From the IMG/VR virus record IMGVR_UViG_3300030107_004732, positions 21,246-85,245 of that record: 64,000 nucleotides of DNA; one strand, given 5' to 3'. Shown here in pieces: positions 12,615 through 62,600 of this stretch. The DNA is from a virus. A program made the position numbers and the translations under genes. Position 1 is the first letter of the stretch, and every line of letters starts with the position of its first letter. The notes under the pieces are model-generated. The model was not told the origin of the DNA, searched no databases, and saw only the letters and a program-made list of their open reading frames with translations.

Positions 12615-12622
12615 ATTCTAAA

Positions 12623-12694: not shown

Positions 12695-12717
12695 TCAAAA
12701 TAAAAAGGAGGAAGCTC

Positions 12718-13221: not shown

Positions 13222-13234
13222 TTAAGGAGAACAT

Positions 13235-13771: not shown

Positions 13772-13791
13772 GTGAGTAGGTAATCGTTAAT

Positions 13792-13875: not shown

Positions 13876-13881
13876 TAAAGA

Positions 13882-14030: not shown

Positions 14031-14046
14031 AAATTAAAGGAGAATT

Positions 14047-16224: not shown

Positions 16225-16226
16225 TT

Positions 16227-16511: not shown

Positions 16512-16527
16512 CACTCAGGAGGGAAGC

Positions 16528-16934: not shown

Positions 16935-17046
16935 AAAACAATTAAAAGCAATTAAAAAACATAGGAAAGATAATCCTAAAGAAACAAGTCATGCTCGTAG
17001 AGCTAGATTATTAAAAAATAAACCTTGGTGGATGCCTCGTGACTAA
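16915..17046 (+). CDS. Small basic protein
   Basis: 43 aa, MAEKLTKKQLKAIKKHRK... ending PWWMPRD. Very lysine/arginine-rich, consistent with nucleic-acid binding. GGAG is seven bases upstream; overlaps the preceding gene by 20 bp. Confidence 0.5.
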   Translation: MAEKLTKKQLKAIKKHRKDNPKETSHARRARLLKNKPWWMPRD

Positions 17047-17188
17047 TTGCAATAAATGTAAATCAAAGTGCTTCCCTGTGTATAGTTTATCTATAGTTAA
17101 CGAAATATACGTATGCAGGGATTGCGCTTTTAAAATAATGGAAGGATATTATGATAGAAGACCTATTAAAACTGAAAAGTCAGATTGA
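17039..17188 (+). CDS. Small zinc-ribbon-like protein
   Basis: 49 aa from GTG 17039 (GGTGG upstream). Two cysteine pairs, C4-NK-C7 and C26-RD-C29, separated by 18 residues make a zinc ribbon. Overlaps neighbours on both sides. Possibly DNA- or protein-binding. Confidence 0.55.
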   Translation: MTNCNKCKSKCFPVYSLSIVNEIYVCRDCAFKIMEGYYDRRPIKTEKSD

Positions 17189-17459
17189 TAGCATGGTAGA
17201 AACATATAAAGATCTACATCCAGATGAGTTTTATGACTTAATGGATAATGGTGAATATATTACTAAAGAAGAGTATGAAACTCATGACAGAGGTAATAAT
17301 ACACATCTAGACGGTATGAGTGAGTATAATCAAAAACAACAGGCACTTAAAAAAATAAGGGAGGGGACTTATGAAAGCACGTTCCGCGAAAAACAAGGGA
17401 AGAAAACTGCAGAACATGGTGAGGGATCGCCTTCGCTCTGTGTTTTCGGAGACTCTTGA
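17151..17459 (+). CDS. Small acidic protein with long overlap into the nuclease gene
   Basis: 102 aa. Residues 1-70 are helical and acidic (MIEDLLKLKSQIDSMVETYKD...); the last 30 residues are encoded within the first 89 bases of the endonuclease gene in another frame and look arbitrary (EHGEGSPSLCVFGDS). GAAGG is five bases upstream. Either a true overlapping pair or a shorter ancestral gene extended by loss of its stop codon. Confidence 0.5.
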   Translation: MIEDLLKLKSQIDSMVETYKDLHPDEFYDLMDNGEYITKEEYETHDRGNNTHLDGMSEYNQKQQALKKIREGTYESTFREKQGKKTAEHGEGSPSLCVFGDS

Positions 17460-17724
17460 GACGAATGATATTGAATCCCAAGTTATGGGAATGAGTGGTG
17501 AGGATATTGTATTATCCCCAGCAGCTAAAAGAGCTATAAAATACAGTTTTGAATGTAAAAATCAAGAAAGATTAAACTTGTGGAAATCTTTAGAACAAGC
17601 AGAATCTAACTGTGATAATAGACATCCTGTACTAGTATTCAAAAGAAATAGAACAAAAACATATGTAGCTATAGAGTTTGATCACTTTATAGAATTAATC
17701 GATGAAAAACAAAAGGAGATTTAA
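17371..17724 (+). CDS. PD-(D/E)XK endonuclease, Holliday-junction-resolvase-like
   Basis: 117 aa. Conserved nuclease core: basic N-terminal helix (KNKGRKLQNMVRDRLR), SGEDIVLSP with D45, then FECKN with E61 and K63, and a following WKSLEQAE helix; spacing D-x15-E-x-K fits the PD-(D/E)XK fold seen in archaeal-type resolvases and VRR-like nucleases. GGGAGGGG precedes the ATG. It may resolve branched replication intermediates before packaging or degrade host DNA. The first 90 bases overlap another gene and are richer in G and C. Confidence 0.7.
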   Translation: MKARSAKNKGRKLQNMVRDRLRSVFSETLETNDIESQVMGMSGEDIVLSPAAKRAIKYSFECKNQERLNLWKSLEQAESNCDNRHPVLVFKRNRTKTYVAIEFDHFIELIDEKQKEI

Positions 17725-17888
17725 TGGAATTAAATCACATAGATAAAACAAATTTAGAATGGATTGAACAATATTTAGAAAACACATCTTATTCTGAAAT
17801 ACCTGAATCATTTATCAATCAAGTTGACCAATGGTTTGAAACTGTTAGTTACATTAAAAGTTTAGTAGAATTAAAAAAACAAAGCTAG
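17724..17888 (+). CDS. Small helical protein, last gene of module A
   Basis: 54 aa, MELNHIDKTNLEWIEQYLENTSY..., acidic helical. TAATG overlap with the nuclease gene. It ends 3 bp from the stop of the convergent module B gene. No terminator fits in the gap. Confidence 0.6.
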   Translation: MELNHIDKTNLEWIEQYLENTSYSEIPESFINQVDQWFETVSYIKSLVELKKQS

Positions 17889-17891
17889 TGA

Positions 17892-20579
17892 CTAAAAGTC
17901 TTGTAGAGAAGAAAGTATTTGCAAGAGTTCCTCTTCTGAGTACTTCTTCTCTGCCTTTGATTTCTTAGTTTCTTTAGGGGTAAAATATGTAGATACAGGT
18001 TCTGGCATATATTTCTGAAGAGGCATTAATAAAGCATCTTTATAACCTGAAAGTTCAGGAGTGCCATATAAACCTAATTCTTGTCCTAATAATGTAGGTA
18101 CACCAGTACCATTTATAGATCTAGGTACAGTTGAGTAAATAAGTCTTCCAATCTGAGTATTTAAAGTTCTTACTATTTCTTCAGTAGAGTCAGTATTGTG
18201 TCTTTCATGGAATTTGATATAACCATTTGAATAAGTTGTCCATTCAGGTCCACCCATTTTCATAAAATTAGTAGCAGTTCCTATTCTTATTATATCACTT
18301 ACAAAAGGACCACCAAATGTTCCAGTAATAGGATCTAATCCAAAAAAGGCTTTCTTTTTAGCTTCTTCATCGCCAGTTAAATATTCTCTTAACCTAATAC
18401 CTCTTTCTAAAGTATCGTTTTGTACTAAATTATTAAAATTAGTATTTGTTAAAGCAGATAACCCTGTTATAAAAGTATATAACATACCCAATCTATATAA
18501 TCTCCAAGCTTCAGGACTGTTCCATTCTTTAGCAAGTATATCATTACCACCTTTTTTAGCTATCTTAGCTTGATAGTTAAAGAAATTAATAGCATAAGTT
18601 GAAAACTGACCTAAAACAGAACCTACAGGGCTTTTTGTTATATTTGGTTTAGCAAACCTATCATATTGATAGTGAAGCTCTTTAACCATTGCTGCTCCAT
18701 AATTAGAAGCTTTTTTTATAATTTGCCTTTCTACTTCAGGAGTAATATCCATTTCTGAATCTTTAGATTTTTTTAAGGTCTTTCTTAATAATTCTTGATT
18801 ACTTTTTAAATCTCTATATTTAGTCATAAATGCAATCTTAAATGTTAAACCCCTATTTATTTTATTTTCAACCCACTGCATAGGTTTACCAGTTATCCTT
18901 GCAGTATTTTCCATCCAATCATTTATTTTACTAGCAGCAGTTGGACCTTTTTCTATAACTCTACCTTCTGGAGTAACTTCTAAATGTGCCATCAAATCTC
19001 TAGGCATAGCAAGTTCTTGTATATTAACAAATTCGAAACCATGTCTTTTCATTTCATTGTCAACAATAGTTTTCATAGATTCTGATTGCAAATCTTTCAT
19101 AGCTGTATATATACCTTTATGACCAAAATATACCCAATTTTGTAAAGACTGGGTAGCATTTCTGGCAGCAGATCTTATATTTAATCCTAATTTAGACATA
19201 AATTGAAATGATGTAATAGCTTGAGAAAAATGAGCAAGTTTACTATCTCTAAATTTTGTGCCTAAAACAGCCTCATGTGTATCACCTATATAGCCTGCTA
19301 AGAACTGTAAATGTTGATCATAATCTTTTCCTTCTAATCTTCCCAACTCTTTTAAAGCATTAGTAGTTTCTTTTGTAACTCTTGCATTATAATTAAATCT
19401 TATAACATTATTTGAAAATGTATCAAGAAGACCTATAACATCTTTATTTTGAAAGTCAAACCTTCCAGATTTCTTTTCAAACGATAAACTAGGCATATTT
19501 AAATTGTCAGCTATATTTTTTATCATAGTACCCATATATCCGCTAACATCTTTATAATTTGTATTTACTTTACCAGAAAACATATCTTGACTAAATTTAG
19601 CAAATGTAGGAGCTATATCTAATACTTGTGTTGGAAAATAATCTTTAGGTTTTTTAGGAGGGGGAATTTCTTTACCATTTTTCTTTGTATAACGAAAATA
19701 ATCATTATATAAATTTTCTAATCTTTTTACCTCAAAACCTACACCATTAAACTCATTTTTATGAGATTCTAAAACTTTTATATAATCTAATATACCATTA
19801 CCTAATACTTTCCATAGTCTATCTTTTAATGGTGCTATATTTTGAGCAGGTTTACCATTATGCCAAAGATTAACAGCTTCTACTACTTCAGGTCCATATT
19901 TTAATTTTGCTGCATCTAAATCCTGTTTTTTAAACTTACTAGGATCTAGCATCAAATCATATAAAGCATTATTAATAGCCATTTGAGATTCAGGATCTAC
20001 ATTTTCAAGCCACTTTTTAGCATAAGCGTCAGCCTCTTCAACTTTGCCATCTTTCATTAACTTTTCATGAGTAATTTGGTGTTTTTTTAACTCTTCTTGA
20101 ACTTTATTTCTACCATAACCATACTTTCTCATAAACCCTGTATCACCCATAGCTCTGTTTAAAGAGTTTTTTATAATAGCTAAATCACTACCTATAGTTT
20201 GTAAATTACCATGATAGTAATTACTAGCTTGAACTAAATTATTAAAGTATTTCTTAGTAATGGGGTTTTTAGATAAAACATTTTCAGGAAGATTAAACAG
20301 TTTACCTAAAGTTGTAGGCTTTTTTTCTAATCCATTTAAAAACTTTGTTACATGCTTATCTAACTTATTTAACTCTTTAGCGTTTGGAAGTCTACTAAAC
20401 TCAAAATCTAAATTAGGAAGTATTTCGTTAAATACTCTTTCAAATTCATTAGATCTACCACCAGTCATAGCTTTTATAATTTTATTATCCATCCATTTAT
20501 CAACAATACCATTTAATCTATTAGCTCTATCTTGTTCACTAGCTTTGACATTTAAAGGATTTAAACATTTAACAGCCAT
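17892..20579 (-). CDS. Putative internal/ejected virion protein
   Basis: 895 aa; start at ATG 20579 with GGAGG eight bases upstream (an in-frame TTG at 20594 is less likely). Mostly helical. The region around residues 560-700 (WMENTARITGKPMQWVENKINRG...; FSTYAINFFNYQAKIAKKGG) and a hydrophobic stretch near 700-720 resemble the C-terminal ends of large phage internal proteins that insert into host membranes. It follows the giant protein with an 11-bp overlap and is the last late gene. An ejection-complex component is likely; no enzymatic motif was seen. Confidence 0.6.
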   Translation of the reverse strand: MAVKCLNPLNVKASEQDRANRLNGIVDKWMDNKIIKAMTGGRSNEFERVFNEILPNLDFEFSRLPNAKELNKLDKHVTKFLNGLEKKPTTLGKLFNLPENVLSKNPITKKYFNNLVQASNYYHGNLQTIGSDLAIIKNSLNRAMGDTGFMRKYGYGRNKVQEELKKHQITHEKLMKDGKVEEADAYAKKWLENVDPESQMAINNALYDLMLDPSKFKKQDLDAAKLKYGPEVVEAVNLWHNGKPAQNIAPLKDRLWKVLGNGILDYIKVLESHKNEFNGVGFEVKRLENLYNDYFRYTKKNGKEIPPPKKPKDYFPTQVLDIAPTFAKFSQDMFSGKVNTNYKDVSGYMGTMIKNIADNLNMPSLSFEKKSGRFDFQNKDVIGLLDTFSNNVIRFNYNARVTKETTNALKELGRLEGKDYDQHLQFLAGYIGDTHEAVLGTKFRDSKLAHFSQAITSFQFMSKLGLNIRSAARNATQSLQNWVYFGHKGIYTAMKDLQSESMKTIVDNEMKRHGFEFVNIQELAMPRDLMAHLEVTPEGRVIEKGPTAASKINDWMENTARITGKPMQWVENKINRGLTFKIAFMTKYRDLKSNQELLRKTLKKSKDSEMDITPEVERQIIKKASNYGAAMVKELHYQYDRFAKPNITKSPVGSVLGQFSTYAINFFNYQAKIAKKGGNDILAKEWNSPEAWRLYRLGMLYTFITGLSALTNTNFNNLVQNDTLERGIRLREYLTGDEEAKKKAFFGLDPITGTFGGPFVSDIIRIGTATNFMKMGGPEWTTYSNGYIKFHERHNTDSTEEIVRTLNTQIGRLIYSTVPRSINGTGVPTLLGQELGLYGTPELSGYKDALLMPLQKYMPEPVSTYFTPKETKKSKAEKKYSEEELLQILSSLQDF

Positions 20580-52502: not shown

Positions 52503-54059
52503 CTAAGCTACAACCCATGATTTTGCAACAGGTCTTTTCTTGTAAAAACTACGTTTACCTTTACCTTCATGAATACCTACAGGTGGATTAGCATATTTAC
52601 AAGCATATGCAAGTGCATCTATAGTATCATCGTGAGCCATTCTTGGACCAAAAGTTATAATTTCATGTTCTAAATCATATTGCTCTTTCTTTAAATGTAT
52701 CTGCCCAATCGCAAATCTTTGAGCAAGTATTTCTTGTATTCTATCTCTTTTAGACATCCTTGTACCAGGTTTTTCTTCTTTAAATCTTACAGTAAAGTCG
52801 TTTCTTCTTCTTGTTTCAGCTCTTAAGGCCTGAAATACAGGTTTACTCATTGTAGTATCTTCTACAACATACAAACTTGGGTGAAATATTTTAGATATAT
52901 CAAACATATAATCTACTATACCCTTTTTATCTTCACCTGGAATACCTAATACTGGTATACCTCTTTTTCTAATATAATCTAATATATAAATATTATTGTC
53001 AGGGTCAACTGCAACAGTTAATATTACACTATAGTCAGCATCTCTTCTTTGACTATCTGTTGCTGGGTCAACTCCAGAAAATATATTTACAGGTTTTAAT
53101 TCTCCATCTATCTTCACAAAAGATATATCTTGTTCTTCATCATGAACAAATTGTCCGTCCCAATATTTAATATGGTTTCTTGTAAAGATAGAGTCATCTT
53201 CACTTTGAACTTCCATCATGTACTCTTGATAGAATTTGTATGGCTGTCCAGAATCAGCGTAAAACTTTTTCTTTCTATCCATTTCTTTTTTGCCGAACCA
53301 GCTATCCCATAGCATAGTCCCATCATCTGCTATCGCTTTCTTAAGAACAACATCCCAAGAAAACTCTTCATTGTTTTTAACAGATTTTTCATAGCTAACA
53401 ATAAGATTATTAATAAAAGAATCAAAATGCACAGGAGTGCCATTAATCCGTAACCTACCAGTATGAGGCTCAAGAGCAGGGAATACCACAGCAGTAATAA
53501 GGTTGGAGTTTTTTGCTCTAGCTTCAGGAGTGATAGTGTTATTTTCGTCTTCAAAATCATCGAGAATAACGAGGTCATATCTTTTATGTAGTTTCGCGCC
53601 TCCTCGTATACCTGAGATATTCGATTTAGAAATAAGTTTACAACCGTTTGTAGTCTCAATGTCTGTCTCCGTCCATTTAGTTCCTTTTAGTCTACCAAAA
53701 TAATACTGAATCCTTTCATTAAATTCCAAATGATATTTAATATAATCCATATTACCTGTGGCCAACTTTGCTGTTGCAGAAACCCAGCCATAAAATAATG
53801 GTTCTTTTGTAAAACAAAATTGATGTAATATGTCACATTTAGTAAGTACTGTTTTTCCATGACCTCTAGGCAAAATAATTGCTGTTTGTTTTTTTTCTTT
53901 ATCTCCAATCGTATCTGCTATTTCATAATGAAAAGGCGGAGTTTCACTTCTCATAAAGTCATCAGGTAAAAATAATTTACCAAATGCGATTAAATCTTTA
54001 GACGCAAGTAATAATGCTTCTTCAGCTTTACTAACATTTTGAGTATTAATATTAGCCAT
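52503..54059 (-). CDS. terL: Terminase large subunit, module B
   Basis: 518 aa, complete. Walker A PRGHGKT (64-70), Walker B YDLVILDDFEDE (near 163-172), coupling motif INGTPVH, nuclease residues in SGVDPATDSQRRDADYS and FGPRMAHDDTIDALAYA. Overlaps terS by 8 bp. Same arrangement and motifs as the partial module A gene at 1-1455, but with no lysin gene between terS and terL. Confidence 0.96.
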   Translation of the reverse strand: MANINTQNVSKAEEALLLASKDLIAFGKLFLPDDFMRSETPPFHYEIADTIGDKEKKQTAIILPRGHGKTVLTKCDILHQFCFTKEPLFYGWVSATAKLATGNMDYIKYHLEFNERIQYYFGRLKGTKWTETDIETTNGCKLISKSNISGIRGGAKLHKRYDLVILDDFEDENNTITPEARAKNSNLITAVVFPALEPHTGRLRINGTPVHFDSFINNLIVSYEKSVKNNEEFSWDVVLKKAIADDGTMLWDSWFGKKEMDRKKKFYADSGQPYKFYQEYMMEVQSEDDSIFTRNHIKYWDGQFVHDEEQDISFVKIDGELKPVNIFSGVDPATDSQRRDADYSVILTVAVDPDNNIYILDYIRKRGIPVLGIPGEDKKGIVDYMFDISKIFHPSLYVVEDTTMSKPVFQALRAETRRRNDFTVRFKEEKPGTRMSKRDRIQEILAQRFAIGQIHLKKEQYDLEHEIITFGPRMAHDDTIDALAYACKYANPPVGIHEGKGKRSFYKKRPVAKSWVVA

Positions 54060-54774
54060 TTAGTTTTTTAGGCCTTTCGGCAACATCAATCATTTTATCA
54101 TCAAATCCTTGAAATTGCACACCTGTTATTTGTTGTACTTTAGCTGTATTCTTATCTTCTAAGTCCATTATATCAGATAGTTTAAATAATGCTTTTAATC
54201 TTGTTTCGTCCTTTTCAGATGATTGAGCTATATTATTTATATTTTCTAACACTGTTGTTTCATTAATACCAAGTTCTTCTAATACTGGTTTTAATTCTTC
54301 TTTCATAGCTGTTTTTACCCTTTCAGTTTTAATTAAATTAACTGCTTTCATTCGAGCATATTGTTTATTATTAGTAGGGAATGCTTTTACATAAGCATCT
54401 TGAGGCTGAATACCAGCAGCAACATATTGAACAAACAATTCTTCATTAGCAGTTAGTTCTCTTCTAGACGCTACTATTTCTTCAGGCGTTTTATTACCTC
54501 CAAAAGAATATATATTAGCTCTTCTGTCGGCATCCATTATAGTTTTTTTATTGATTATAAAGGTACCAGTACAAGTACCTAGGTAAGTTACTTCTTTATT
54601 TTTTTGAAGCATTGAACCTTTACGAATAACTTGAATAACACATTCATCATCCGTTAATACCCAATCTCCAATAGTCCCATTACGCCAGTTTTTTACTATA
54701 GTAATATTACCTGGAACTTCGTCCACACTATCATATACAGTATGTAAAACTCTATTTACTTTATAACTTCTCAA
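54052..54774 (-). CDS. terS: Terminase small subunit, module B
   Basis: 240 aa. Starts at TTG (54774), overlapping the TGA of the preceding gene, with AGGTGA upstream; the first residues (MRSYKVNRVLHTVYD) align with module A, MRVYKVNRIEHTVFD, supporting this start. Same organisation: N-terminal beta domain, HTH-like AYVKAFPTN region (about 125-155), helical ENINNIAQSSEKDETRLKALFKLSDIMDL. Recognises the packaging site. Confidence 0.88.
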   Translation of the reverse strand: MRSYKVNRVLHTVYDSVDEVPGNITIVKNWRNGTIGDWVLTDDECVIQVIRKGSMLQKNKEVTYLGTCTGTFIINKKTIMDADRRANIYSFGGNKTPEEIVASRRELTANEELFVQYVAAGIQPQDAYVKAFPTNNKQYARMKAVNLIKTERVKTAMKEELKPVLEELGINETTVLENINNIAQSSEKDETRLKALFKLSDIMDLEDKNTAKVQQITGVQFQGFDDKMIDVAERPKKLNG

Positions 54775-54986: not shown

Positions 54987-55010
54987 GCACATAATATAAT
55001 ATAGTGTGAG

Positions 55011-55028
55011 CCAAATTTCCAAATTTGG
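55011..55028. promoter_or_regulatory. Palindromic operator-like site in the module B divergent region
   Basis: CCAAATTTCCAAATTTGG is a perfect inverted repeat and also two tandem CCAAATTT units. Its ATTTCCAAATTT core recurs at 3857-3868 in module A. It lies 25 bp upstream of the leftward start codon at 54986, where a repressor could cover the promoter. Confidence 0.5.
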
Positions 55029-55235
55029 TGAACACAATTAAGTATTTGACGCAAAAAGCCCCTGGGAAAGTTGATTAAAGTTTAAATTTCGTTTAAAGCC
55101 AGTTCTCTTTTTATTACTAGGTTTCAATAAAGTAAGCTTAATTAGTCTATTGGAGACACTCTCAATCTCATCTTACCTTTATCCATCTAATATTAAGTTT
55201 GGTCCATACTCTAACTTATATTAAACTAATTTTCG

Positions 55236-55286
55236 GAAGTTATCGGTGAAAATCCTTTCTTCTATATGAAGTGGCAAACCGACTTC
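55236..55286 (+). ncRNA. Stem-closed RNA-like element
   Basis: GAAGT (55236-55240) and CGGT (55244-55247) pair with ACCG (55278-55281) and ACTTC (55282-55286), leaving a TAT bulge; CTTC-TATAT-GAAG forms inside. Candidate leader structure in the long control region. Confidence 0.4.
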
Positions 55287-55474
55287 TGACCCTCTACTTG
55301 CGTGCAAAGCCTTCAAGGGTGATAATTTAAAAAAATTACTTCCTAATAGGTGTATAAGTTACTGTAGCTTAATTCTTAAAGTCAACTAATTTAGTTAAAA
55401 ATGATTTGAAAAAAGGGAAGGTTTCAAAAATTGTAGGATTTTAGTGGAGACCCATATTTAAGCGAGTAGCCTGC

Positions 55475-55516
55475 CCCATTTCACTTTTTATATATGGAAA
55501 ATGGGTTATTTTTCAT
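55475..55516 (+). promoter_or_regulatory. Alternative hairpins (possible attenuator or riboswitch platform)
   Basis: CCCATTT (55475-55481) can pair with AAATGGG (55499-55505), or ATGGAAAAT (55494-55502) can pair with ATTTTTCAT (55508-55516); the two share bases and cannot form together. The second is followed by T-rich sequence. The first early gene starts 35 bases downstream. Confidence 0.4.
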
Positions 55517-55550
55517 TTTAATCAAAAACAAAAACGAAAGGACTAATACA

Positions 55551-55910
55551 ATGAAACAGTATTATTCAACAGCAAAAGCAAAAGCCATCATCTTTACAGA
55601 TGATACAGGCAATGAAAAAACATTTTATCAGCTTACCAACGACACATCTTTACCTGTCAATTTCCTTGGTGAGCAAACCGAAACATTATCTCACAATGTC
55701 TTTGGTATCAAAGCTTCCAACGAGCCACAAGTCAGCATCTATCTGTCTGAAGAGCAATTCAACAAAATGCAAAACAAAACTTATCATTGCATTATTTCTC
55801 TTACTGAATCAGGTGCTCCTCAAATTACTCAAGTATCTGAAAAGCAATCTGAAATACCAAAAGCATTGCTTGCTCATACTTCCTTCTACAATCCTCTTAC
55901 TATCTCATAG
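55551..55910 (+). CDS. Hypothetical protein, monocistronic
   Basis: 119 aa from ATG 55551 (MKQYYSTAKAKAIIFTDDTGN...), with AAAGGA upstream at somewhat long spacing. Beta-rich, Thr/Ser/Gln-rich, with codons that use C more often than the neighbours. It occupies the same slot as the unrelated module A gene at 3924 and is likewise followed by a terminator, so both are separately regulated, perhaps strongly expressed. Not recognised. Confidence 0.75.
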   Translation: MKQYYSTAKAKAIIFTDDTGNEKTFYQLTNDTSLPVNFLGEQTETLSHNVFGIKASNEPQVSIYLSEEQFNKMQNKTYHCIISLTESGAPQITQVSEKQSEIPKALLAHTSFYNPLTIS

Positions 55911-55926
55911 TTCCTTGCACACTTCA

Positions 55927-55969
55927 AGAGCCATTGACTCACACTCTTTGGCTCTTACCCCTTTTTTTT
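55927..55969 (+). terminator. Probable rho-independent terminator
   Basis: AGAGCCA/TGGCTCT (7-bp stem, 15-nt loop) followed after ACCCC by eight T residues, 17 bp after the stop of the 55551 gene. The short spacer before the T-run is atypical. Confidence 0.6.
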
Positions 55970-55975
55970 ATACGA

Positions 55976-56003
55976 TAGACTTCGTGTGATAAACTTGTAT
56001 TAT
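55976..56003 (+). promoter_or_regulatory. Candidate promoter of the module B early block
   Basis: TAGACT, 16 bp, TATTAT directly after the terminator and 34 bp before the ATG at 56037. Similar in -35 sequence and location to the module A early promoter (TAGACA at 4405). Confidence 0.45.
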
Positions 56004-56036
56004 AAATAAACATACCCTAAACATAAAGGAGAAACG

Positions 56037-56510
56037 ATGATATACTTAATATCAGCAACAATTATACTTTGGATTACTGTTTGTATACTTATAGGCAACA
56101 GTTTCTACCAAGATAAACAACTAGAAAAGCTAAAGCAAGACTACTTCAAACTCTTTGCTCAAACTGAACATGTCAAGTTAGCTGAACGCAACACATTTGA
56201 CTATGCGTTTGATAACATTGCTCAAGTAAGGCAACAGATAAGAGACTTAAATGTTGATGAACGACTTGGTCACTTAACTAAATCTATACTTGATGTAAAG
56301 ACAGACATGAAGATAGCATTTGAACAAGAGAATGAATACATTGAGTCAAGAATAGATGATGTAAGAAGAGAGTTTGGTGCTAAAGATGTGTTACCATTTA
56401 AAGAAATTGTAAAACCAGCACAATGCTATTTACCTGACGTCACAGATGATGAATACACTGTTAAATGGACTACAAATCAAGAACAATATAGTAATAAGGA
56501 GGACAAATAA
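56037..56510 (+). CDS. Membrane-anchored coiled-coil protein
   Basis: 157 aa. N-terminal transmembrane segment (residues 2-20, IYLISATIILWITVCILIG), then a long charged helical region (25-125) and a soluble C-terminus. AAAGGAG before the ATG. First gene of the early block; may act at the host membrane. Not recognised. Confidence 0.7.
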   Translation: MIYLISATIILWITVCILIGNSFYQDKQLEKLKQDYFKLFAQTEHVKLAERNTFDYAFDNIAQVRQQIRDLNVDERLGHLTKSILDVKTDMKIAFEQENEYIESRIDDVRREFGAKDVLPFKEIVKPAQCYLPDVTDDEYTVKWTTNQEQYSNKEDK

Positions 56511-56671
56511 TGGAGTTTATTAAACTATTCTTATCAACTATAGTAATTATTGTTCTATCATTTATATCATACAGTTCTGTTATAATAAGTGAGGTATTCT
56601 ATCATATTTATAAGTATACAATGAGATGTATCAAGTATATTATGATTAATTGTATGGAAGGAGCTGAATAA
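56510..56671 (+). CDS. Small membrane protein
   Basis: 53 aa, MEFIKLFLSTIVIIVLSFISYSSV..., one long hydrophobic segment and a Cys/Tyr-rich tail. TAATG overlap upstream with GGAGG site; the next ATG follows its stop directly. Not recognised. Confidence 0.6.
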   Translation: MEFIKLFLSTIVIIVLSFISYSSVIISEVFYHIYKYTMRCIKYIMINCMEGAE

Positions 56672-57055
56672 ATGGAATATTGTAAAAGATGTGACAGTTT
56701 CTACCAAGTAAATGATTACCACACTTGTTTTAGTGAGTATGAGAACATTAGGAGAATGAATAAGGCTTACACATTAAAACAGCAAAGTAAAGATGGTATT
56801 GCTAACTATGATATTAATGATATAGTAACTATTGATAAAGACTTATTACATCATATACTTAGAGATGAGATGATGAATAACTTGTTAACTATTCTTGGTA
56901 TCAACGACTTTAACAAATGGTATGTTGAGACAGTAGGTGGTCCAGCACCATTTATTAATGTTGGCCATAAGAAGAAAACAAGAACCAAACAAACAAGAAG
57001 GTATAAGAACCAGAAATACCATATTCTTGATGAAAAGGAAATGGAATTTAAATAA
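56672..57055 (+). CDS. Putative zinc-binding protein with basic C-terminus
   Basis: 127 aa. N-terminal Cys/His cluster (YCKRCDSFYQVNDYHTCF: C4, C7, H17, C19) forms a zinc-finger-like site; the C-terminal 35 residues are strongly basic (HKKKTRTKQTRRYKNQKY). GGAAGGAG upstream. A nucleic-acid-binding role is plausible. Confidence 0.65.
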   Translation: MEYCKRCDSFYQVNDYHTCFSEYENIRRMNKAYTLKQQSKDGIANYDINDIVTIDKDLLHHILRDEMMNNLLTILGINDFNKWYVETVGGPAPFINVGHKKKTRTKQTRRYKNQKYHILDEKEMEFK

Positions 57056-57081
57056 CCAAACAAATAACTTAGGAGACTAAC

Positions 57082-57558
57082 ATGAAATTATATAAAAAGA
57101 TAAATACTAAATACGGTGTTGTTTATAAGAAGGTAGATAAAAGCGAGAGTGAAGGCGGCGCGGATGTTGAAAGAATTACTCCTGACACTCTTTTAACTAA
57201 AGAACAACGAGAAATGGTTAAAGAGGCTATTGCAAGGCAAGATAGGCAATTAGCATCAGGTAACTTTGAGGTAATAGAAAGAGATACGATTAATGGTAAA
57301 GCATTATCTATGAGGCCTAAAAATCCTCTTGATATAACTAATTGGAATGAAGATACTATCTATCGAGACTTAAATGGTAGATATGAAAATATATTCTCAC
57401 ATATGAATAAACTATGGTGTGACGGTCATGGCTTTGAAGATTGTAGTAAATGTAGTATGTATGCGAGAATGTTAGTAGAAGTATTTGATAAGATAAATGA
57501 ATTGAGTGGCCGCGACATGTCACAAGATTTATGCTCTTATCATAAAGACGACAAATAA
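57082..57558 (+). CDS. Hypothetical protein with C-terminal cysteine cluster
   Basis: 158 aa. N-terminal beta segment, middle LLTKEQREMVKEAIARQDRQL helix, and a C-terminal half with a cysteine/histidine cluster (WCDGHGFEDCSKCSMYARML), probably metal-binding. TAGGAG upstream. Its stop precedes the structured intergenic region at 57577. Not recognised. Confidence 0.65.
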   Translation: MKLYKKINTKYGVVYKKVDKSESEGGADVERITPDTLLTKEQREMVKEAIARQDRQLASGNFEVIERDTINGKALSMRPKNPLDITNWNEDTIYRDLNGRYENIFSHMNKLWCDGHGFEDCSKCSMYARMLVEVFDKINELSGRDMSQDLCSYHKDDK

Positions 57559-57576
57559 CCAAAAATAATAAAATTA

Positions 57577-57685
57577 GGCAGAGTCCTTAAATCGCGAGAT
57601 TAAGGGAGTGTTTTGACATAGTGTGAACATAGTAATCCTCCAAAGAGTATCACACAGTCTCCTTTAGCACTTGGTTAACTCTGCC
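57577..57685 (+). ncRNA. Stem-closed RNA-like element
   Basis: GGCAGAGT/ACTCTGCC (8 bp) closes a 109-nt stretch with a CCTTAA-N9-TTAAGG hairpin (57585-57605) and an AGTGTGA/TCACACA arm. Same general plan as the module A elements: a long closing stem, two or three arms, located between early genes. Confidence 0.5.
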
Positions 57686-57692
57686 GCTTAAT

Positions 57693-57749
57693 TAGAGAGA
57701 AAGTTGTGGCTAAAACTACCATTCACTGAAAGCGTAGTCTTTCTCTCTA
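57693..57749 (+). ncRNA. Stem-closed RNA-like element
   Basis: TAGAGAGAAAG/CTTTCTCTCTA gives an 11-bp perfect closing helix with an inner ACTAC/GTAGT arm. It begins 8 bases after the previous element and ends 10 bases before the AAAGGAG site of the next gene. Confidence 0.55.
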
Positions 57750-57769
57750 CACACTAAAAGGAGAAATAA

Positions 57770-58360
57770 ATGATAACATCAATAATAATAATAATAGCTA
57801 TAGTTTTATTAACATACAAACAAAGAACTATAAATAACCAATTACATAACGAAATAACTACTAATTCTAATTGTATTGAAGAGTTAGAATCATTTACGTA
57901 TCACGATGAATCTGAAATAAAAGATTGGATAGAAGATGGAACTCGTGACATACAATATGATTTAGATAATCACTCTTCAGAAATAGAAGACCTAAGTTAT
58001 GATAAAGCTAATAATAACTATGTAGATGGAGAAATAGAAGACCTTCATAAGAAACTAACAAAAATAATAAAAGAAGAGATGGAAGAATGGAGTGTATTAT
58101 TTGATAGAGTTCGTAATATAACTGCATATCTAAGTTCTACAACATCTGATTTTCAAAAGACTCTTAATGATAGTGGTAATCCTATTGCATATGATAAAGA
58201 CAATAATGCAGAAAAGGCTGTTCGTATTCTTCAATTATGTAAAGATGCAATTAATAATAATTTCCCTGATGATGAGGTAGGTGATATATCTATTACATTT
58301 AATGGTGATGAATATTCTCTTGCAACTAATGAAATTGAAGGAGCTGAAGACAATGAATAG
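57770..58360 (+). CDS. Membrane-anchored acidic protein
   Basis: 196 aa. N-terminal hydrophobic segment (MITSIIIIIAIVLLTY), then an acidic region with helical and repeated Asp/Glu runs (EIKDWIEDGTRDIQYDLDNHSSEIEDL). Similar architecture to the 56037 gene. AAAGGAG upstream. Possibly a membrane-tethered decoy or exclusion factor; not recognised. Confidence 0.65.
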   Translation: MITSIIIIIAIVLLTYKQRTINNQLHNEITTNSNCIEELESFTYHDESEIKDWIEDGTRDIQYDLDNHSSEIEDLSYDKANNNYVDGEIEDLHKKLTKIIKEEMEEWSVLFDRVRNITAYLSSTTSDFQKTLNDSGNPIAYDKDNNAEKAVRILQLCKDAINNNFPDDEVGDISITFNGDEYSLATNEIEGAEDNE

Positions 58361-58568
58361 TTTTGCTAACTTACAAAAATGGCTTGATAAAGCAGGTTAT
58401 AAATTAGGGTATGATATTCATAATATACCTGAACCAAAATACTGGCATTTAATTGAAAGATTAGGTATTTACGCTCACACTTGGTATGGCTATAACGAGC
58501 AAGAACAGTATGATTGGTATGAAAACGATAATTATAGAGACTTTTTAAATAAATATGAAGGGAGTTAA
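58353..58568 (+). CDS. Small hypothetical protein
   Basis: 71 aa from ATG 58353 (MNSFANLQKWLDKAGYKLGYD...), AAGGAG ten bases upstream, 8-bp overlap with the preceding stop. Rich in Tyr, Trp and acidic residues at the C-terminus. Not recognised. Confidence 0.6.
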   Translation: MNSFANLQKWLDKAGYKLGYDIHNIPEPKYWHLIERLGIYAHTWYGYNEQEQYDWYENDNYRDFLNKYEGS

Positions 58569-58569
58569 G

Positions 58570-58836
58570 ATGACATATGATATGCATTTAGTATCAAATG
58601 AAATTGAAGATAACAGAGAACCAGAAGATAGGGATAATAAAATCTTTTGGCTTGATAAATTTCAAGGCGAAGCAAAAGGTGGTTTAATGTATCGCTCTAA
58701 AACAGCTATAGATATAGAAACTGTTGAAGAAAAGTTTAATGTTAAAGTAGTTGGTATAAAAATTGACCCTGACTATGAATCAGGTAAAGCTTCTTGGACA
58801 ATAGAATATATCACAGCGGTGGAGGGAGATAAATGA
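58570..58836 (+). CDS. Small hypothetical protein
   Basis: 88 aa from ATG 58570 (MTYDMHLVSNEIEDNREPEDRD...), GGGAG six bases upstream. An alpha/beta mix (NKIFWLDKFQGEAKGG; VEEKFNVKVVGIKI). Overlaps the next start by ATGA. Not recognised. Confidence 0.6.
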   Translation: MTYDMHLVSNEIEDNREPEDRDNKIFWLDKFQGEAKGGLMYRSKTAIDIETVEEKFNVKVVGIKIDPDYESGKASWTIEYITAVEGDK

Positions 58837-59009
58837 TTATGAAATGTTGTTTTGATGATTGTTATAATGATTGTGGTATTTACGGACATAATGCAGAACC
58901 TGCAGCATCTGGGAGGTGCTGTGGGGACTGTAATGGGACTGTTGTAGTTCCATTTAGAATACATTTATTAGTAACCGATAAAATAGGAGATAAAAATGAG
59001 ACAAGATAA
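58833..59009 (+). CDS. Cysteine-rich small protein
   Basis: 58 aa with seven cysteines (C5, C6, C10, C14, C29, C30, C33); the SGRCCGDCNG centre followed by VVVPFRI is like small phage zinc-binding proteins. GGAGGGAG upstream. Metal binding likely; function unknown. Confidence 0.6.
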   Translation: MIMKCCFDDCYNDCGIYGHNAEPAASGRCCGDCNGTVVVPFRIHLLVTDKIGDKNETR

Positions 59010-59283
59010 CCAACCTCAAGGTGATAGAGAACAAGAAGAGCTTAAAGGTATTAGAGCATCTTGGATAGAAACAGCAAGTAAATTGCTATTAGGACGTAAA
59101 ATAGTTAAAGTAGATTACATACCTGTTAAAGAAACAGATGAAATGATGTGGCAGCATCAACCTGTATGTTTTCTTTTAGATAACGGTGATTGGGTATATC
59201 CTATGGCAGATGATGAAGGTAACGATGCAGGTGCTTTAGTAGTCGGACAAGACCTGTTACCAGTATTGAGAGGTGATAAATGA
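58996..59283 (+). CDS. Small hypothetical protein
   Basis: 95 aa, beta-rich middle (KIVKVDYIPVKETDEMMWQHQPVCFLLDNGDWVYPMADDEGN) like small phage ssDNA-mimic or inhibitor proteins in composition, but no family recognised. TAGGAG upstream; ATGA overlap with the next gene. Confidence 0.6.
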   Translation: MRQDNQPQGDREQEELKGIRASWIETASKLLLGRKIVKVDYIPVKETDEMMWQHQPVCFLLDNGDWVYPMADDEGNDAGALVVGQDLLPVLRGDK

Positions 59284-59384
59284 TAAACTGGACTAATATA
59301 ATATTATATGGTAGCATCACTGTAAGTTCTATATTTATATGGTACTTAATAGTTTACTATTTAATAGATTGGTGGTGTAAATGA
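59280..59384 (+). CDS. MINW-type single-pass membrane peptide, module B copy
   Basis: 34 aa, MINWTNIILYGSITVSS... ending IDWWCK. Shares the MINW start, hydrophobic centre and tryptophan-rich end with the module A peptide (8791-8880). Overlaps both neighbours by 4 bp. Confidence 0.6.
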   Translation: MINWTNIILYGSITVSSIFIWYLIVYYLIDWWCK

Positions 59385-59548
59385 AAAAATGGAAACTAAA
59401 AGAATATCCTGATGAAGACTTGTTTGAAGATGGAGAACTTGATGAGTCTACAACTAAAATGATAGCTATAACACCTGTTCAAGAAAAGATACTATGGCTT
59501 TTAAGCACAGGCAGAGCAGTTCTTGCTGAATGGGAGGAATCAAAATGA
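59381..59548 (+). CDS. Small acidic protein
   Basis: 55 aa, MKKWKLKEYPDEDLFEDGEL..., acidic, helical C-terminus (VQEKILWLLSTGRAVLAEWEE). ATGA overlaps at both ends. Not recognised. Confidence 0.55.
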   Translation: MKKWKLKEYPDEDLFEDGELDESTTKMIAITPVQEKILWLLSTGRAVLAEWEESK

Positions 59549-59760
59549 GTTGGTTTTGTGATACAGAAGAAGCTAAGGAACATAAAAAGAACTGTAAAAA
59601 AAATCCTTGGAATTGTGGTAAATGTGTCTGGATAGATGAATCTGCTATTGCTATGGGTAGATATGGTAAAGTAGTAAAAAAAGAAAGAGACTTAGGAGAA
59701 CCACACCCTTTAACTGACTTAATAATAGAAAAGTTCAATGGGAGAATAATAGATGAATAA
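59545..59760 (+). CDS. MSWFCDT cysteine protein, module B copy
   Basis: 71 aa from ATG 59545 (GGAGG seven bases upstream). Nearly identical to 16722-16934 over residues 1-44, including C5, C17, C24 and C27; the C-terminus differs. In module A the gene lies after primase-helicase, here well before it, so gene order has been shuffled around a conserved protein. Zinc binding likely, function unknown. Confidence 0.75.
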   Translation: MSWFCDTEEAKEHKKNCKKNPWNCGKCVWIDESAIAMGRYGKVVKKERDLGEPHPLTDLIIEKFNGRIIDE

Positions 59761-59893
59761 AATACATACTGAATTAAGAATTGTCTGGATAACACCAGAT
59801 GGTAATTACTTTTTAAACAAACAACTCGCAGAAAAACACTGTGATAACTTTAACCTCTTAAAAGAAGAAGGAGAAATAAATGAAGAAATCTAA
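59753..59893 (+). CDS. Small hypothetical protein
   Basis: 46 aa, MNKIHTELRIVWITPDG..., short beta pair then an acidic helix. GGGAG upstream; overlaps both neighbours. Not recognised. Confidence 0.5.
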   Translation: MNKIHTELRIVWITPDGNYFLNKQLAEKHCDNFNLLKEEGEINEEI

Positions 59894-60416
59894 AATGTCA
59901 GTCCAACAAAGAAAATACTTTGTCGAGAGAATAAGTAAAACAATTAATGAGCAAATATTAAACTTGAGACAACAAAGCGCTTCTCATGTTTATGATGTTT
60001 CCGAACAAGCTTATAAGAAATACTTAAAAGCAGTTGGTTTAGATAAAACTATTAATAAGTATAATAAGTTAAAACCTCAAATAGATGAATTAGGTGATAA
60101 AATAAGAGCAGTATTTGATGAAATTAAAAATACTCTTGATAATGAGGATTTATCTTGGCAAATAAGACAAAATCAACCAAGTCTTTATGGTAGTAATCAT
60201 ACTATAACAGATATAAATAGAGCATTTAGATGGTGTTGTAACGAAACAGCAAAGAAAAATGATAAATCCCTTACAATAACTGATGATATTAAGAAGTTAG
60301 AAGAAAAAAGAGATAGAGCTATTGATATACTTCATGGTGTAGATGAGTTTTCTGATACATTAGAATCTGTTAATAAAATGTTAAAGGGAACAGCAGTTCC
60401 TAGATTAGGAGAATAA
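59880..60416 (+). CDS. Hypothetical helical protein
   Basis: 178 aa, almost entirely helical with charged surfaces (KYNKLKPQIDELGDKIRAVFDEIKNTL) and a central WCCNET. GAAGGAG upstream. Directly followed by the WWWRPLW gene. Not recognised. Confidence 0.65.
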   Translation: MKKSKMSVQQRKYFVERISKTINEQILNLRQQSASHVYDVSEQAYKKYLKAVGLDKTINKYNKLKPQIDELGDKIRAVFDEIKNTLDNEDLSWQIRQNQPSLYGSNHTITDINRAFRWCCNETAKKNDKSLTITDDIKKLEEKRDRAIDILHGVDEFSDTLESVNKMLKGTAVPRLGE

Positions 60417-60417
60417 A

Positions 60418-60930
60418 ATGGGAATGGATGTATATGGTAATAACCCTACAATACACAAATCTAAAGATGAGTTTCCTCTTTATGCTAAATATGAAGATGT
60501 GCCTTGGGGTGATAGAGAAAAGGACCCTGAATGGGAAAAAGTTAAAGATGCGTATTGGGAAGAATATAATGCTTATGAAAAAGCTAATCCTGGTGTTTAT
60601 TTTCGTAATAATTGTTGGTGGTGGAGACCATTATGGAATTATTGTTACTTTATAAGTAGACATTACAATCTAAATCTTATTGATGAAGAATTATTTCAAT
60701 CAGGTCATGCTAATGATGGCGCAGGTTTAGACGCTGAAGGTTCTATGACACTTGCAATGCATCTACAAATGAGTATTGAAGATGGCACAGCAGAAAACTA
60801 TGATTCAGAATATAAAGAGGAAATGGAAGCATCAGATGATGAATTTGCTAAAAGTTATCCTTTTGATATAAGAAATGTAGCAGATTTTGCTGAGTTTCTT
60901 GAATATTCAGGTGGATTTAGTATTAATTAA
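60418..60930 (+). CDS. WWWRPLW-motif protein, module B copy
   Basis: 170 aa. Counterpart of 7988-8488: MGMDVYGNNPTIHKS start, PGVYFRNNCWWWRPLWNY (near 60-77), and a C-terminal SYPFDIRNVADFAEFLEYSGGFSI. Conserved at the ends, variable between. The pair shows the two modules descend from a common ancestor. Function unknown. Confidence 0.8.
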   Translation: MGMDVYGNNPTIHKSKDEFPLYAKYEDVPWGDREKDPEWEKVKDAYWEEYNAYEKANPGVYFRNNCWWWRPLWNYCYFISRHYNLNLIDEELFQSGHANDGAGLDAEGSMTLAMHLQMSIEDGTAENYDSEYKEEMEASDDEFAKSYPFDIRNVADFAEFLEYSGGFSIN

Positions 60931-60947
60931 TCTTGCCGATAGGATAT

Positions 60948-61018
60948 TATACTTACGAGTATAAATTACTATTTTAGAGATTAAAATGAGGGTGGAAATT
61001 CGAGGTTCTGCCCTCATT
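60948..61018 (+). ncRNA. Two hairpins before the helix-turn-helix gene
   Basis: TATACT-TACG-AGTATA (60948-60963) and AATGAGGG/CCCTCATT (60985-61018, 8 bp). They occupy the gap after the WWWRPLW gene; the AGGAG site of the next gene follows 30 bases later. Confidence 0.45.
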
Positions 61019-61063
61019 AAACTTACACAGTCAATAATAAATATAACAATAGGAGACAAAACA

Positions 61064-61270
61064 GTGAAAAAAGATAAAAAAGTTAGTAAAAAATCTAAAG
61101 TTCTAGCACATTTAGTTTCAGGTGAGTCAATTACACCACTTGAAGCGTTAGAATTGTATGGAAGTTTTAGATTAGGTGCAATTATATTTGAATTAAGAGC
61201 AGATGGACATAAAATTGACACCGAAATTGCTAAAGGCTCAGGACATGCAATTTATTCATACATAAAGTAA
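61064..61270 (+). CDS. Helix-turn-helix protein
   Basis: 68 aa from GTG 61064 (AGGAG eight bases upstream); an in-frame ATG at 60986 lies within a hairpin and is unlikely. Basic N-terminus (KKDKKVSKKSKVLAHL), then GESITPLEALELYGSFRLGAIIFELRADGHKI, the common small phage winged-HTH pattern. Probably a DNA-binding regulator. Confidence 0.7.
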   Translation: MKKDKKVSKKSKVLAHLVSGESITPLEALELYGSFRLGAIIFELRADGHKIDTEIAKGSGHAIYSYIK

Positions 61271-61337
61271 TATTTTCTTGGATAATTGTGCGAGAAAATG
61301 TAAATTAACAGGCTATTAATAGAGGAGAACAAACAAA

Positions 61338-61520
61338 ATGGCTAAAACTAATAAAAATACAAAAAAACAAGAAAATTCTGTTGTAGAGAATTTAAAAACT
61401 GCATTAGCTAATTACAGAAAAAGCCACGAACACCTTCAAGTAACTATAATAAAAGTTGAAGGAGCAATTGAGGCTACTCAAAATATGTTAAAAGAGTATG
61501 AGGAGGAAGTAAATGGATAA
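61338..61520 (+). CDS. Small coiled-coil protein
   Basis: 60 aa, basic N-terminus (MAKTNKNTKKQE) then a continuous helix (VEGAIEATQNMLKEYEEEV). It overlaps the ERF gene by 8 bp. May be an ERF accessory; not recognised. Confidence 0.6.
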   Translation: MAKTNKNTKKQENSVVENLKTALANYRKSHEHLQVTIIKVEGAIEATQNMLKEYEEEVNG

Positions 61521-61959
61521 TGAAACAATCGAAACACCTGAAGAAAGAAGAATATCAGATTGGAAATCACAAGAGATTGATAAATTAGCAACTGCTCTTG
61601 CAAAAGTACAATCAGAACTTGAGGGTGCTAAAAAAGAAAGTACTAATCCATTCTTCAACTCAAGCTATGCTGATTTACATAGTGTAATTAAATCATCGTT
61701 TCCATTTTTATCTAAACACGGTTTATCTGTGTCACAAGGTAATGAAGTTATACCTGGTGCTGTATGTGTAACTACTACACTTATGCATTCATCAGGACAA
61801 TGGATTCGTTCTAAAGTAAAACTTCCATTAGAAAAGAAAAACGCTCAAGGCGTAGGTTCTGCTATTACTTATGGAAGAAGATATGGATTATCAGCTATTG
61901 TTGGTATTGCACAATATGATGATGATGGTAATTATGTATCACCCCCTAAACCTAGATAA
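61513..61959 (+). CDS. erf: ERF-family single-strand annealing protein, module B
   Basis: 148 aa. Core nearly identical to the module A copy: LATALAKVQSELEGAKKES, NPFFNSSYADLHSVI, GLSVSQG, TTTLMHSSGQW, GVGSAITYGRRYGLSAIVGIAQYDDDG. The start follows AGGAGG. It lacks module A's 40-residue N-terminal extension. Followed by an SSB-like gene. Confidence 0.9.
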   Translation: MDNETIETPEERRISDWKSQEIDKLATALAKVQSELEGAKKESTNPFFNSSYADLHSVIKSSFPFLSKHGLSVSQGNEVIPGAVCVTTTLMHSSGQWIRSKVKLPLEKKNAQGVGSAITYGRRYGLSAIVGIAQYDDDGNYVSPPKPR

Positions 61960-61980: not shown

Positions 61981-62502
61981 ATGCCTATAACAATAAAAGA
62001 AAGCTCTAACAAATCTTATGCAGAAGGATGGCATAATGTAACTGTAAGAGAGGCAAAAGTAGGAGACTTTAATGGGTCTAAATATATAGACTTATGGTTT
62101 GTAGATTACCCAGACAACTTAAAATGTCGTATTTGGGAAGCTCGTAATAAAGATGGAGAAGAATTTTCTGTATCAAATATGATAAGATACTCTAATCCTG
62201 ATATTTTAGAGCATTCTGAAGGAGCTGATGGTGCTGTTACAGCTCAAGTTGATGATTCAGCATCTTCTATAAAGGGTAAGCAGTTTCAAGCCTATTTCTA
62301 CAAAAAAGCAAATGGTTATACTGAAATATCTCAGAAATTAGCACCTGCTACACCATTTAAGAATATTGTAGAATCATATGATGAAGAAAGAATACATCGT
62401 ATAAAAACTTCAGCAGAGGAATATACTAAGCGTAGGAATACGACAGTCCCTACTTCTCTAAACGAAGAGACAAGTAGCTCAGAGGAGGAAGTCCCTTTCT
62501 AA
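61981..62502 (+). CDS. SSB-like single-strand binding protein, module B
   Basis: 173 aa with the same plan as 13235-13771: beta-rich core (AEGWHNVTVREAKVGDFNGSKYIDLWFVDYP), variable middle, Ser/Glu linker, and acidic EEEVPF tip. AAGGAG upstream. Ends 17 bp before the conserved structured RNA. Confidence 0.75.
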   Translation: MPITIKESSNKSYAEGWHNVTVREAKVGDFNGSKYIDLWFVDYPDNLKCRIWEARNKDGEEFSVSNMIRYSNPDILEHSEGADGAVTAQVDDSASSIKGKQFQAYFYKKANGYTEISQKLAPATPFKNIVESYDEERIHRIKTSAEEYTKRRNTTVPTSLNEETSSSEEEVPF

Positions 62503-62518: not shown

Positions 62519-62600
62519 AAAGAGAGCCAATAACTGGTCCTGTAAGTCCAAACTGATTCGTAGATGATGCCTTGGCGAAGGAATATGTGAGGCTCTCTTT
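62519..62600 (+). ncRNA. Conserved structured RNA element, module B copy
   Basis: AAAGAGAGCC/GGCTCTCTTT (10 bp) encloses AACTGGTCCTGTAAGTC, a GCC-TT-GGC hairpin and GGAATATGTGAG. The loop blocks match 13792-13875 exactly in sequence and spacing, while helix bases differ with pairing kept. The primase-helicase binding site follows 17 bases later. Confidence 0.75.

Follow-up and report, generated by a model that had tools for sequence, protein, structure and literature searches.

The 211-nt gap at 57559-57769, between the plus-strand ORFs 57082-57558 and 57770-58360 of a viral record from IMG/VR, holds in tandem two closed elements that covariation in sequence alignments identifies as two separate RNA families without an Rfam match. 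In related phages, one such family replaces another at the same genomic slot, and the same tips are carried on different scaffolds. The stretch of DNA analyzed, referred to here as the window, comprises 64,000 nucleotides of an 85,245-base record whose terminase large subunit and major head protein genes are those of a tailed phage. The best reading of these elements, which we favor tentatively and with a little less than even confidence, is that they are interchangeable RNA folds that would act in cis on phage mRNA, in its processing or protection.

Both elements are bounded by perfect inverted repeats on the plus strand. Element 1 (57577-57685) is closed by the 8-bp arms GGCAGAGT/ACTCTGCC (57577-57584/57678-57685), and element 2 (57693-57749) is closed by the 11-bp arms TAGAGAGAAAG/CTTTCTCTCTA (57693-57703/57739-57749). 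A first-pass annotation of this DNA had described two closed elements in tandem within one gap, one of them with an 11-bp helix, and both repeats are exact; its length of 57 nt for element 2 is correct, whereas element 1 measures 109 nt rather than 110 nt. No ORF of 20 or more amino acids lies wholly within the gap (three overlap its edges), no tRNA or tmRNA was detected in it by ARAGORN or Rfam, and no family of Rfam 15 matched at gathering score anywhere in the 64-kb window. When the gap was scanned permissively, Rfam listed four matches with E of 0.84 or worse, all to weak unrelated families and none to a ribozyme.

The length of the helices alone is weak evidence for an RNA. Perfect 11-bp inverted repeats no more than 150 nt apart are unremarkable across the window (three, versus a mean of 5.75 in 20 window shuffles) and unusual within the 211-nt gap, for which 2 of 1000 shuffles contained one or more 11-bp repeats and 46 of 1000 contained two or more 8-bp repeats. 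Shuffling had also been named by the annotation as the control for a structured RNA signal, and the signal is present under it, with z-scores of about -2.6 to -3.1 on the plus strand: compared with dinucleotide shuffles, folding energy has a z-score of -2.77 for element 1, -3.08 for element 2, and -2.63 for the whole gap, for which the minus strand gives -1.31. The data support elements 1 and 2 as structured RNA elements, not chance hairpins, and we take the comparative evidence, namely base-pair covariation among homologues of both elements, as decisive. The nearest contig (L002) has a gap identical to that of the window except for one base outside both elements and therefore gives no covariation information.

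Element 1 is a three-way junction, designated family F3, closed by the 8-bp helix P1. Within it, P2 (57585-57589/57601-57605) is a hairpin with a GCGA tetraloop inside AATCGCGAGAT, followed by P3 (57606-57610/57668-57672) and by P4 (57615-57617/57657-57659), and the variable tip (57618-57656) has its own helix (57621-57626/57650-57655; GTGTGA/TCACAC). Among F3 members, the tip differs in both length and sequence (alignment A7), and the loop of P2, on its short stem, reads as a GNRA tetraloop (GCGA or GTGA). A sequence search with element 1 yielded only three alignments, all sub-threshold (E 36-45). The best was to L081, which differs from element 1 by compensatory changes (CCTTA/TAAGG to CGTCC/GGGCG; GAC/GTC to AAC/GTT), and the same element is present in L160 in a near-identical stretch. 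The covariance model R1, built from the window and L081 and run against 158 sources, matched L123 (E 1e-8), L100 (E 2e-8), L034 (E 1.5e-5), and L007 (E 2.5e-5), and weakly L114 (E 0.17 to 0.74, depending on search size); L098, with an E of 4.3, was rejected as a member. A whole-record search with R1 contributed L296 and placed the family in 2 of 35 records, which is a lower bound since the known members L007 and L034 were missed.

The resulting alignment comprises eight F3 sequences, among them the weak L114. Of its 159 cells, 98.7% pair, and both sides have changed in 13 of its 21 pairs; these counts are biased towards structure because the alignment was fitted to the model. None of 500 shuffles of the eight sequences reached any measure, and one in 500 reached one measure with an earlier seven-sequence alignment that also included L114. 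A loose pattern of element 1 returned at least 120 stretches, with at least 119 new loci (L161-L279); those inspected look like chance, and they were excluded from later counts. As a side observation, the F3 elements at L081 (2847-2928) and L160 (3154-3235) lie directly downstream of an ORF in which HNH-endonuclease-like residues are visible by eye.

Element 2, designated family F2, has a different fold. The 5′ strand of stem S1, TTGTG (57704-57708), pairs with 57724-57726 and 57728-57729 (CAC, a bulged T, GA); it is followed by the conserved, unpaired loop L1, GCTAAA (57709-57714), and by the 5′ strand of stem S2, ACTAC (57715-57719), which pairs with GTAGT (57734-57738) immediately after a conserved AGC (57731-57733; alignment A5). 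The order of the family is P1 - UUACG (a) - GCUAAA - ACCAC (b) - loop - CGU(U)AA (a′) - tip - AGC - GUGGU (b′) - P1′, in which stems a/a′ and b/b′ cross; the fold is therefore an H-type pseudoknot, closed by P1. In longer members, the tip is inserted between S1′ and the conserved AGC.

Two partial contig matches revealed the conserved string GGCTAAAACYACCATTC of F2, which is found in 42 viral-contig stretches, and a looser F2-related pattern is found in 98, already known ones included; some of the F2 stretches are, by eye, chance matches, and the same holds for F1 (e.g. L019, L096, L122, L138). A descriptor requiring a closing helix of at least 6 bp together with stem S2, with a partner for S1 sought in 60 nt and wobbles allowed, so that a few S1 partners may be chance, identified 57 distinct cores at 70 places in viral contigs and missed the members L132, L134, L140, L147, and L152, which were found by other means. 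Among the 33 aligned sequences of A5, 99.0% of 613 cells pair, and shifting the partner by one to three columns lowers pairing to 39-54%. Changes on both sides occur in 10 of the 19 pairs (seven in P1, two in S1, and one in S2, those in S1 and S2 coming from only two rows, the window and L152), and none of 500 shuffles reached any of the five measures. A5 contains 33 of 35 rows, L132 and L144 being omitted for their short closing helices and L134 shortened by a single base at both ends. The covariance model R2 gave 44 strong matches with E of 1.7e-7 or lower in 159 sources, two of which end at a contig edge; the 44 include the 33 sequences from which R2 was built. Covariation thus defines the folds of both elements.

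Every one of the 49 TTACG cores of F2 has a pairing partner within 60 nt, and 47 have it within 12 nt of S2. All four TTGTG cores (L300, L325, L350, and L002, a duplicate of the window) have a CAC partner where TTACG cores carry CGT, and the consensus partner is found within 12 nt in none of the four, L300 having one at position 14. The core of L157 (TTATG/CATTAA) is a clear compensatory case, and that of L306 pairs by wobble with CGTTAA. The TTGCG core of L303 has a partner only at position 41, and the partner of L307 (TATAG, position 28) is doubtful. Across the 57 cores, S2 reads ACCAC/GTGGT in 50, ACTAC/GTAGT in four, ACCGC/GTGGT in two, and ACTGC/GCAGT in one. There are 37 distinct closing helices. 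F2 has a strongly conserved core, with a closing helix and a tip that vary. Two weak R2 matches, L072 481-590 (plus strand, E 0.48) and L105 2805-2879 (minus strand, E 0.18), were omitted from all counts; by eye both show F2-like pairing (at least S2 and the closing helix) in largely different sequence, and they are possible distant members of F2.

The annotation had proposed that the two elements keep the plan of those in module A while their sequence drifts. A closed plan is indeed common to the elements of both modules, consisting of a variable closing helix, a conserved core, and an exchangeable inner part, and the sequences, as had been noted, do not match: the elements of module A at 13792-13875 and 9364-9448, and one of module B at 62519-62600, belong to other families. 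A reading of elements 1 and 2 as drifted module A sequences is not supported. Sequence searches found no relation between element 1 and element 2 or between either of them and the F1 and F4 elements of the window, and homology among them was rejected on this basis. From the comparisons of flanking sequence described below, the apparent drift looks more like replacement of families at the same slot in related phages.

The F1 cassette of module A (13792-13875, plus strand) consists of CAACAACTGGTCCTGTAAGTC, a tip, and GCAAAGGAATATGTGAG within its own closing helix, and that of module B (62519-62600, plus strand) lies at the homologous position, the two being downstream of the homologous genes 13235-13771 and 61981-62502, respectively. 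Both contain the 17-mer AACTGGTCCTGTAAGTC, which is present in 117 viral-contig stretches, most of them shown in register. The F4 cassette of module A (9364-9448, plus strand) consists of GACAGGCGAGT, a tip, and ACTAACGAGGGTC. F4 and a further family, F5, were recognized through shared tips, with nine and four copies, respectively, by exact patterns in a subset of loci; F5 has TGTAAGTC..GCA in common with F1 and, from this sequence, may be its relative. A longer F1 pattern had a single match among genome_contigs, in a 26.7-kb contig titled as a Flavobacteriales MAG (L280) that may be a binned phage contig, and which is weak evidence of a host and no proof of one. Further closed elements are discernible by eye at 13886-14027, 9296-9357, 7839-7903, and 6772-6851 of the window, and six contigs contain relatives of the stretch 13876-14046 at 84-89% identity, with shorter matches in further contigs.

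The F1 and F2 elements are, with few exceptions, placed between genes and on the strand of those genes. In a survey of 141 elements (102 F1 and 39 F2; simple ORF calls, duplicate loci counted), the upstream neighbor is on the same strand for 95 of the 97 F1 and 35 of the 36 F2 elements whose neighbor is known, and the downstream neighbor for 80 of 84 and 28 of 34, respectively. An ORF of 80 or more amino acids encloses just three of the 141 elements. F1 and F2 are thus strand-biased and intergenic, and this placement, together with the covariation, suggests an RNA that works as part of, or within, a transcript.

When both flanks of 173 elements were compared with 224 sequences (2.0 Mb), 395 flank-pair matches, with self-matches and duplicates counted, enclosed elements of one family, seven had a gap shorter than 60 nt, and 38 had longer, different content, some of the 38 being ordinary gene differences or repeat listings. 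One family replaces another at the same slot in four cases checked by alignment of the flanks: F1 in L038 versus F2 in L299 (flank identity 142/147 upstream and 89/120 downstream), F2 in L348 versus F4 in L035 (122/147 and 130/143), F1 in L009 versus F2 in L297 (107/145 and 113/138), and F1 in L028 versus F3 in L081 (102/145 and 94/115). The slot of F2 in L348 is that of the F4 cassette in module A of the window, the gene at 9064-9282 having 89% identity across 218 bases and the downstream one 77% across 202 bases; an F4-like stretch is present at another place in L348 (75% across 83 bases). That the F4 slot of module A holds, in a different phage, an F2 element is the sound core of the annotation's idea of a retained architecture. 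These exchanges suggest that related phages need the fold at these sites, not any one sequence. Two of the seven short gaps are empty slots (L101 versus L042; L042 versus L016), so a cassette is not required everywhere, and different short elements lie in others. Further, unclassified closed elements were observed, in slots that relatives fill with F1 or F2, in L306, L147 (11631-11723), L025 (7371-7434), L069, L075, L070, and L034, and these are candidates for further RNA families.

Presence or absence at a slot, and replacement there, would also be expected of selfish or neutral cassettes spread by recombination through their short closing-helix arms, or of mere recombination joints like those of the T4 PeSLs. 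Two properties of the arms fit such a process: GAGAG is common to many closing helices (52 of 83 F1 and 47 of 57 F2), and in the L009/L297 exchange the outer arms TTAAAAGAGAG/CTCTCTTTTAA are kept while the core changes. Given this common GAGAG, slot fidelity could, against our favored reading, stem from recombination hot spots without function. Covariation and near-invariant unpaired core positions nevertheless imply selection on the RNA fold, and strand bias is unexpected for a purely DNA-level joint; we therefore regard cassettes of this selfish or neutral kind as decidedly unlikely.

The genes beside the elements bear on how specific their job would be. F2 is without a fixed neighboring gene, its 29 downstream ORFs falling into 25 clusters and its 35 upstream ORFs likewise into 25. 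F1, unlike F2, has favored positions, with 83 downstream ORFs in 34 clusters (the largest of 12) and 98 upstream ORFs in 30 clusters (the largest of 32). Element 2 ends 20 nt upstream of the start codon at 57770, and an SD-like site with a start codon is found within 40 nt of 23 of the 57 F2 cores, as would suit a riboswitch or translational leader specific for the gene immediately downstream. The prospects of that explanation are very remote, given that no downstream gene type is conserved among the 25 clusters of F2 and that the position ahead of a given gene can be taken by another family. That F2 has no fixed neighbor and that families interchange at a slot argue instead for a generic job. 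In eight loci (L026, L031, L064, L067, L088, L099, L111, and L121), F1 was observed directly after the stop/start overlap CGATGA, and the next frame can start at a GTG (ATG in L111) in the F1 core after AAAGGA; in these eight loci, the sequence suggests that F1 may supply the ribosome-binding site and start codon.

The tips constitute a second level of exchange. When 73 F1, 57 F2, 12 F4, six F3, and five F5 tips were compared, cross-family matches spanning 18 nt or more numbered 16 on the sense strand and zero on the opposite one. The 16 matches represent four modules (11 of one, three of another, and one each of two), each occurring on different scaffolds. A module of ~28 nt, AGCCTCATGGGCAAGTCCCGTGGACGAA or close variants, is carried by F1 (L025, L079, L104), F2 (L297, L345), and F4 (L035), and a module of ~70 nt (89% identical) by F1 (L107), F2 (L323), and F5 (L081); a third is common to F1 (L105) and F4 (L071), and a fourth to F1 (L108) and F5 (L044). 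The six F3 tips, for which coordinates are approximate, had no cross-family match. That the tips are themselves conserved modules argues against a boundary role alone and suggests a second function.

Copy number was determined in 35 records. Because these were selected through the F1 or F2 loci that they contain, they inform on copy number and not on presence. With up to two mismatches allowed, the F1 17-mer is found in 26 of them, once in 24 and twice in the record of the window (G000) and in G013, and F2 is found in 13, once in 12. The usual state of one copy per family per record would suit trans-acting structured sRNAs, and so would the free position of F2, with neighbors in 25 clusters, and the recurrence of tips as intact modules on different scaffolds; in such a system the cassette would be released and bind a host or competitor factor (e.g. 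an RNase, or a defense RNA or protein), with the tip setting the target. An RNA working in trans could be encoded anywhere, yet here one family substitutes for another at a given slot, and between 57400 and 57900 there is neither a promoter-like site on the strand of the elements nor a terminator-like site. On balance, we consider trans action somewhat unlikely. The promoter search relied on a sigma-70-like consensus, which a non-consensus promoter would escape, and identified in this region a single site, on the minus strand (57812-57785), where shuffled sequences gave 2.6 on average; intrinsic terminators (a G+C-rich stem followed by a T run) numbered zero on both strands.

The HK022 put and Bacillus EAR RNAs are antitermination RNAs that act as nascent folds on RNA polymerase. 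Cis elements of this type, by which a nascent fold would modify the polymerase and let it transcribe through a long operon, would be consistent with elements that lie nearly always on the gene strand, with F2 not being gene-specific, and with the usual single copy per family in a record. Element 1, however, is located ~2 kb downstream of the first plus-strand ORF of module B (55494) rather than at the operon start, and several families are present within one module, which makes antitermination highly doubtful here.

In the cis-acting reading that we favor, elements 1 and 2 would belong to a pool of short RNA cassettes that populates the early or replication-type gene region of related phages, each cassette folding on its own and combining a conserved core with a closing helix that varies freely and, often, with an exchangeable tip. 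The cassettes would act in cis on polycistronic mRNA as boundaries for transcript processing or protection, and any family could serve at a slot because the job would be generic. The near-single copy of each family per genome may be maintained because recombination between repeated copies would remove the intervening genes; an ERF-type annealing protein is encoded at 61513-61959 (PF04404). Self-cleavage by new small ribozyme classes would be the first candidate mechanism, and an exonuclease-stopping fold the second. Exoribonuclease-resistant RNAs (xrRNAs) have pseudoknotted folds, with several classes sharing one job, and the cassettes may resemble them in both respects.

Self-cleavage is put first because small folds, conserved nucleotides, and classes near the same phage genes are the pattern by which ribozymes have been discovered. 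Several small ribozyme classes were discovered by searching near phage genes and other ribozymes, and pistol, hatchet, and twister-sister are different classes that cluster with one another around the same phage genes (PMC4604425, PMC6154101). Like these phage intergenic ribozymes (hammerhead, twister, pistol, twister-sister, hatchet), the cassettes combine small folds, variable stems, and conserved nucleotides, and some of the classes are pseudoknotted (PMC4604425, PMC6154101). The conserved unpaired core within covarying helices is as expected for a new small ribozyme and also fits an aptamer or a protein-binding RNA. The cassettes differ from the known ribozymes in that no Rfam model recognizes them at gathering score, be it in the window or in 27 loci, and in that conserved tip modules are common to different scaffolds; no ribozyme is among the permissive matches from parts of the window, and self-cleavage would here be a candidate mechanism. 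Interchange of families at slots is seen, with no known ribozyme beside them in the 27 loci at gathering score. Against self-cleavage, no known self-cleaving ribozyme was found near the elements at that score in the 64-kb window and the 27 loci (~271 kb), the scan of the latter (135,453 + 135,239 bases) returning only two tRNAs. A more elaborate proposal is a combinatorial system of at least four scaffolds (F1-F4) and interchangeable tips, in which several scaffolds would be new self-cleaving ribozyme classes, slots would be filled by the last-acquired combination, and processing sites would be exchanged like cassettes; we judge it unlikely.

The nearest known concept is that of the PeSLs of T4-type phages, which one report presents as intergenic cassettes tied to modular shuffling (PMC4503421), and the elements here are likewise intergenic phage cassettes linked to shuffling. 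A PeSL, however, is an early promoter plus a stem-loop, whereas around this gap no promoter-like or terminator-like site was found on the plus strand, and what is conserved is an RNA core that covaries and forms a pseudoknot. The cassettes also resemble ROOL and GOLLD, elaborate phage-encoded structured RNAs without an assigned function; the predicted structure of ROOL has multiple pseudoknots (PMC12286853). ROOL and GOLLD are large (a 659-nt ROOL; many GOLLD >800 nt), are often near tRNA islands, and have Rfam models, neither of which matches in the 64-kb window; the modules here, by contrast, are ~50-150 nt in length, lie between protein genes, and have no Rfam match in the window. None of the literature titles and abstract openings searched, which cover few subscription papers, describes these RNA families. 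The system of scaffold, tip, and slot would be of a new kind, although its chemistry may prove to be of a known one.

Intergenic gaps of phages are usually read as spacers, and here they contain covarying RNA families exchanged at fixed positions. If the slots are sites of processing or protection, different RNA folds would be functionally interchangeable in natural genomes, and co-location would become a route to further RNA families. If the cassettes act in trans, they would represent a large, little explored set of phage RNA effectors.

Neither the 55000-61500 region of the window nor the head protein has a match in the GenBank phage collection, and for the elements the collection contains single matches with E of 0.9 (one F1 element) and 0.7 (one F2 element). 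The terminase matches 530 phage records, the best 12 of which are 25-27% identical (Roseobacter, Lentibacter, Vibrio, and oyster-associated phages), and the helicase matches one record, a Moorella phage (24%).

The record of the window seems to consist of two related phage genomes head to tail (window 1-17900 versus 17900-64000). Early genes are duplicated (e.g. 62627-end versus 14296-16077, 51%), as are a protein encoded at 2801-3532 and 54052-54774 (59% identical) and the structural genes (record bases 1-20000 versus the window; head protein 63%), and there are two F1 elements where most records carry one. This duplication is either a chimeric assembly or a real tandem. The noncoding stretch at 6890-7330 has a relative in L035 (75% over 444 bases), and that at 55037-55550 has relatives, in pieces, in L020, L094, L119, L100, and others; the two are perhaps larger structured RNAs of the same phages. 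The ORF at 10993-11964 encodes a protein with a weak match to a JAB domain, below the curated cut-off.
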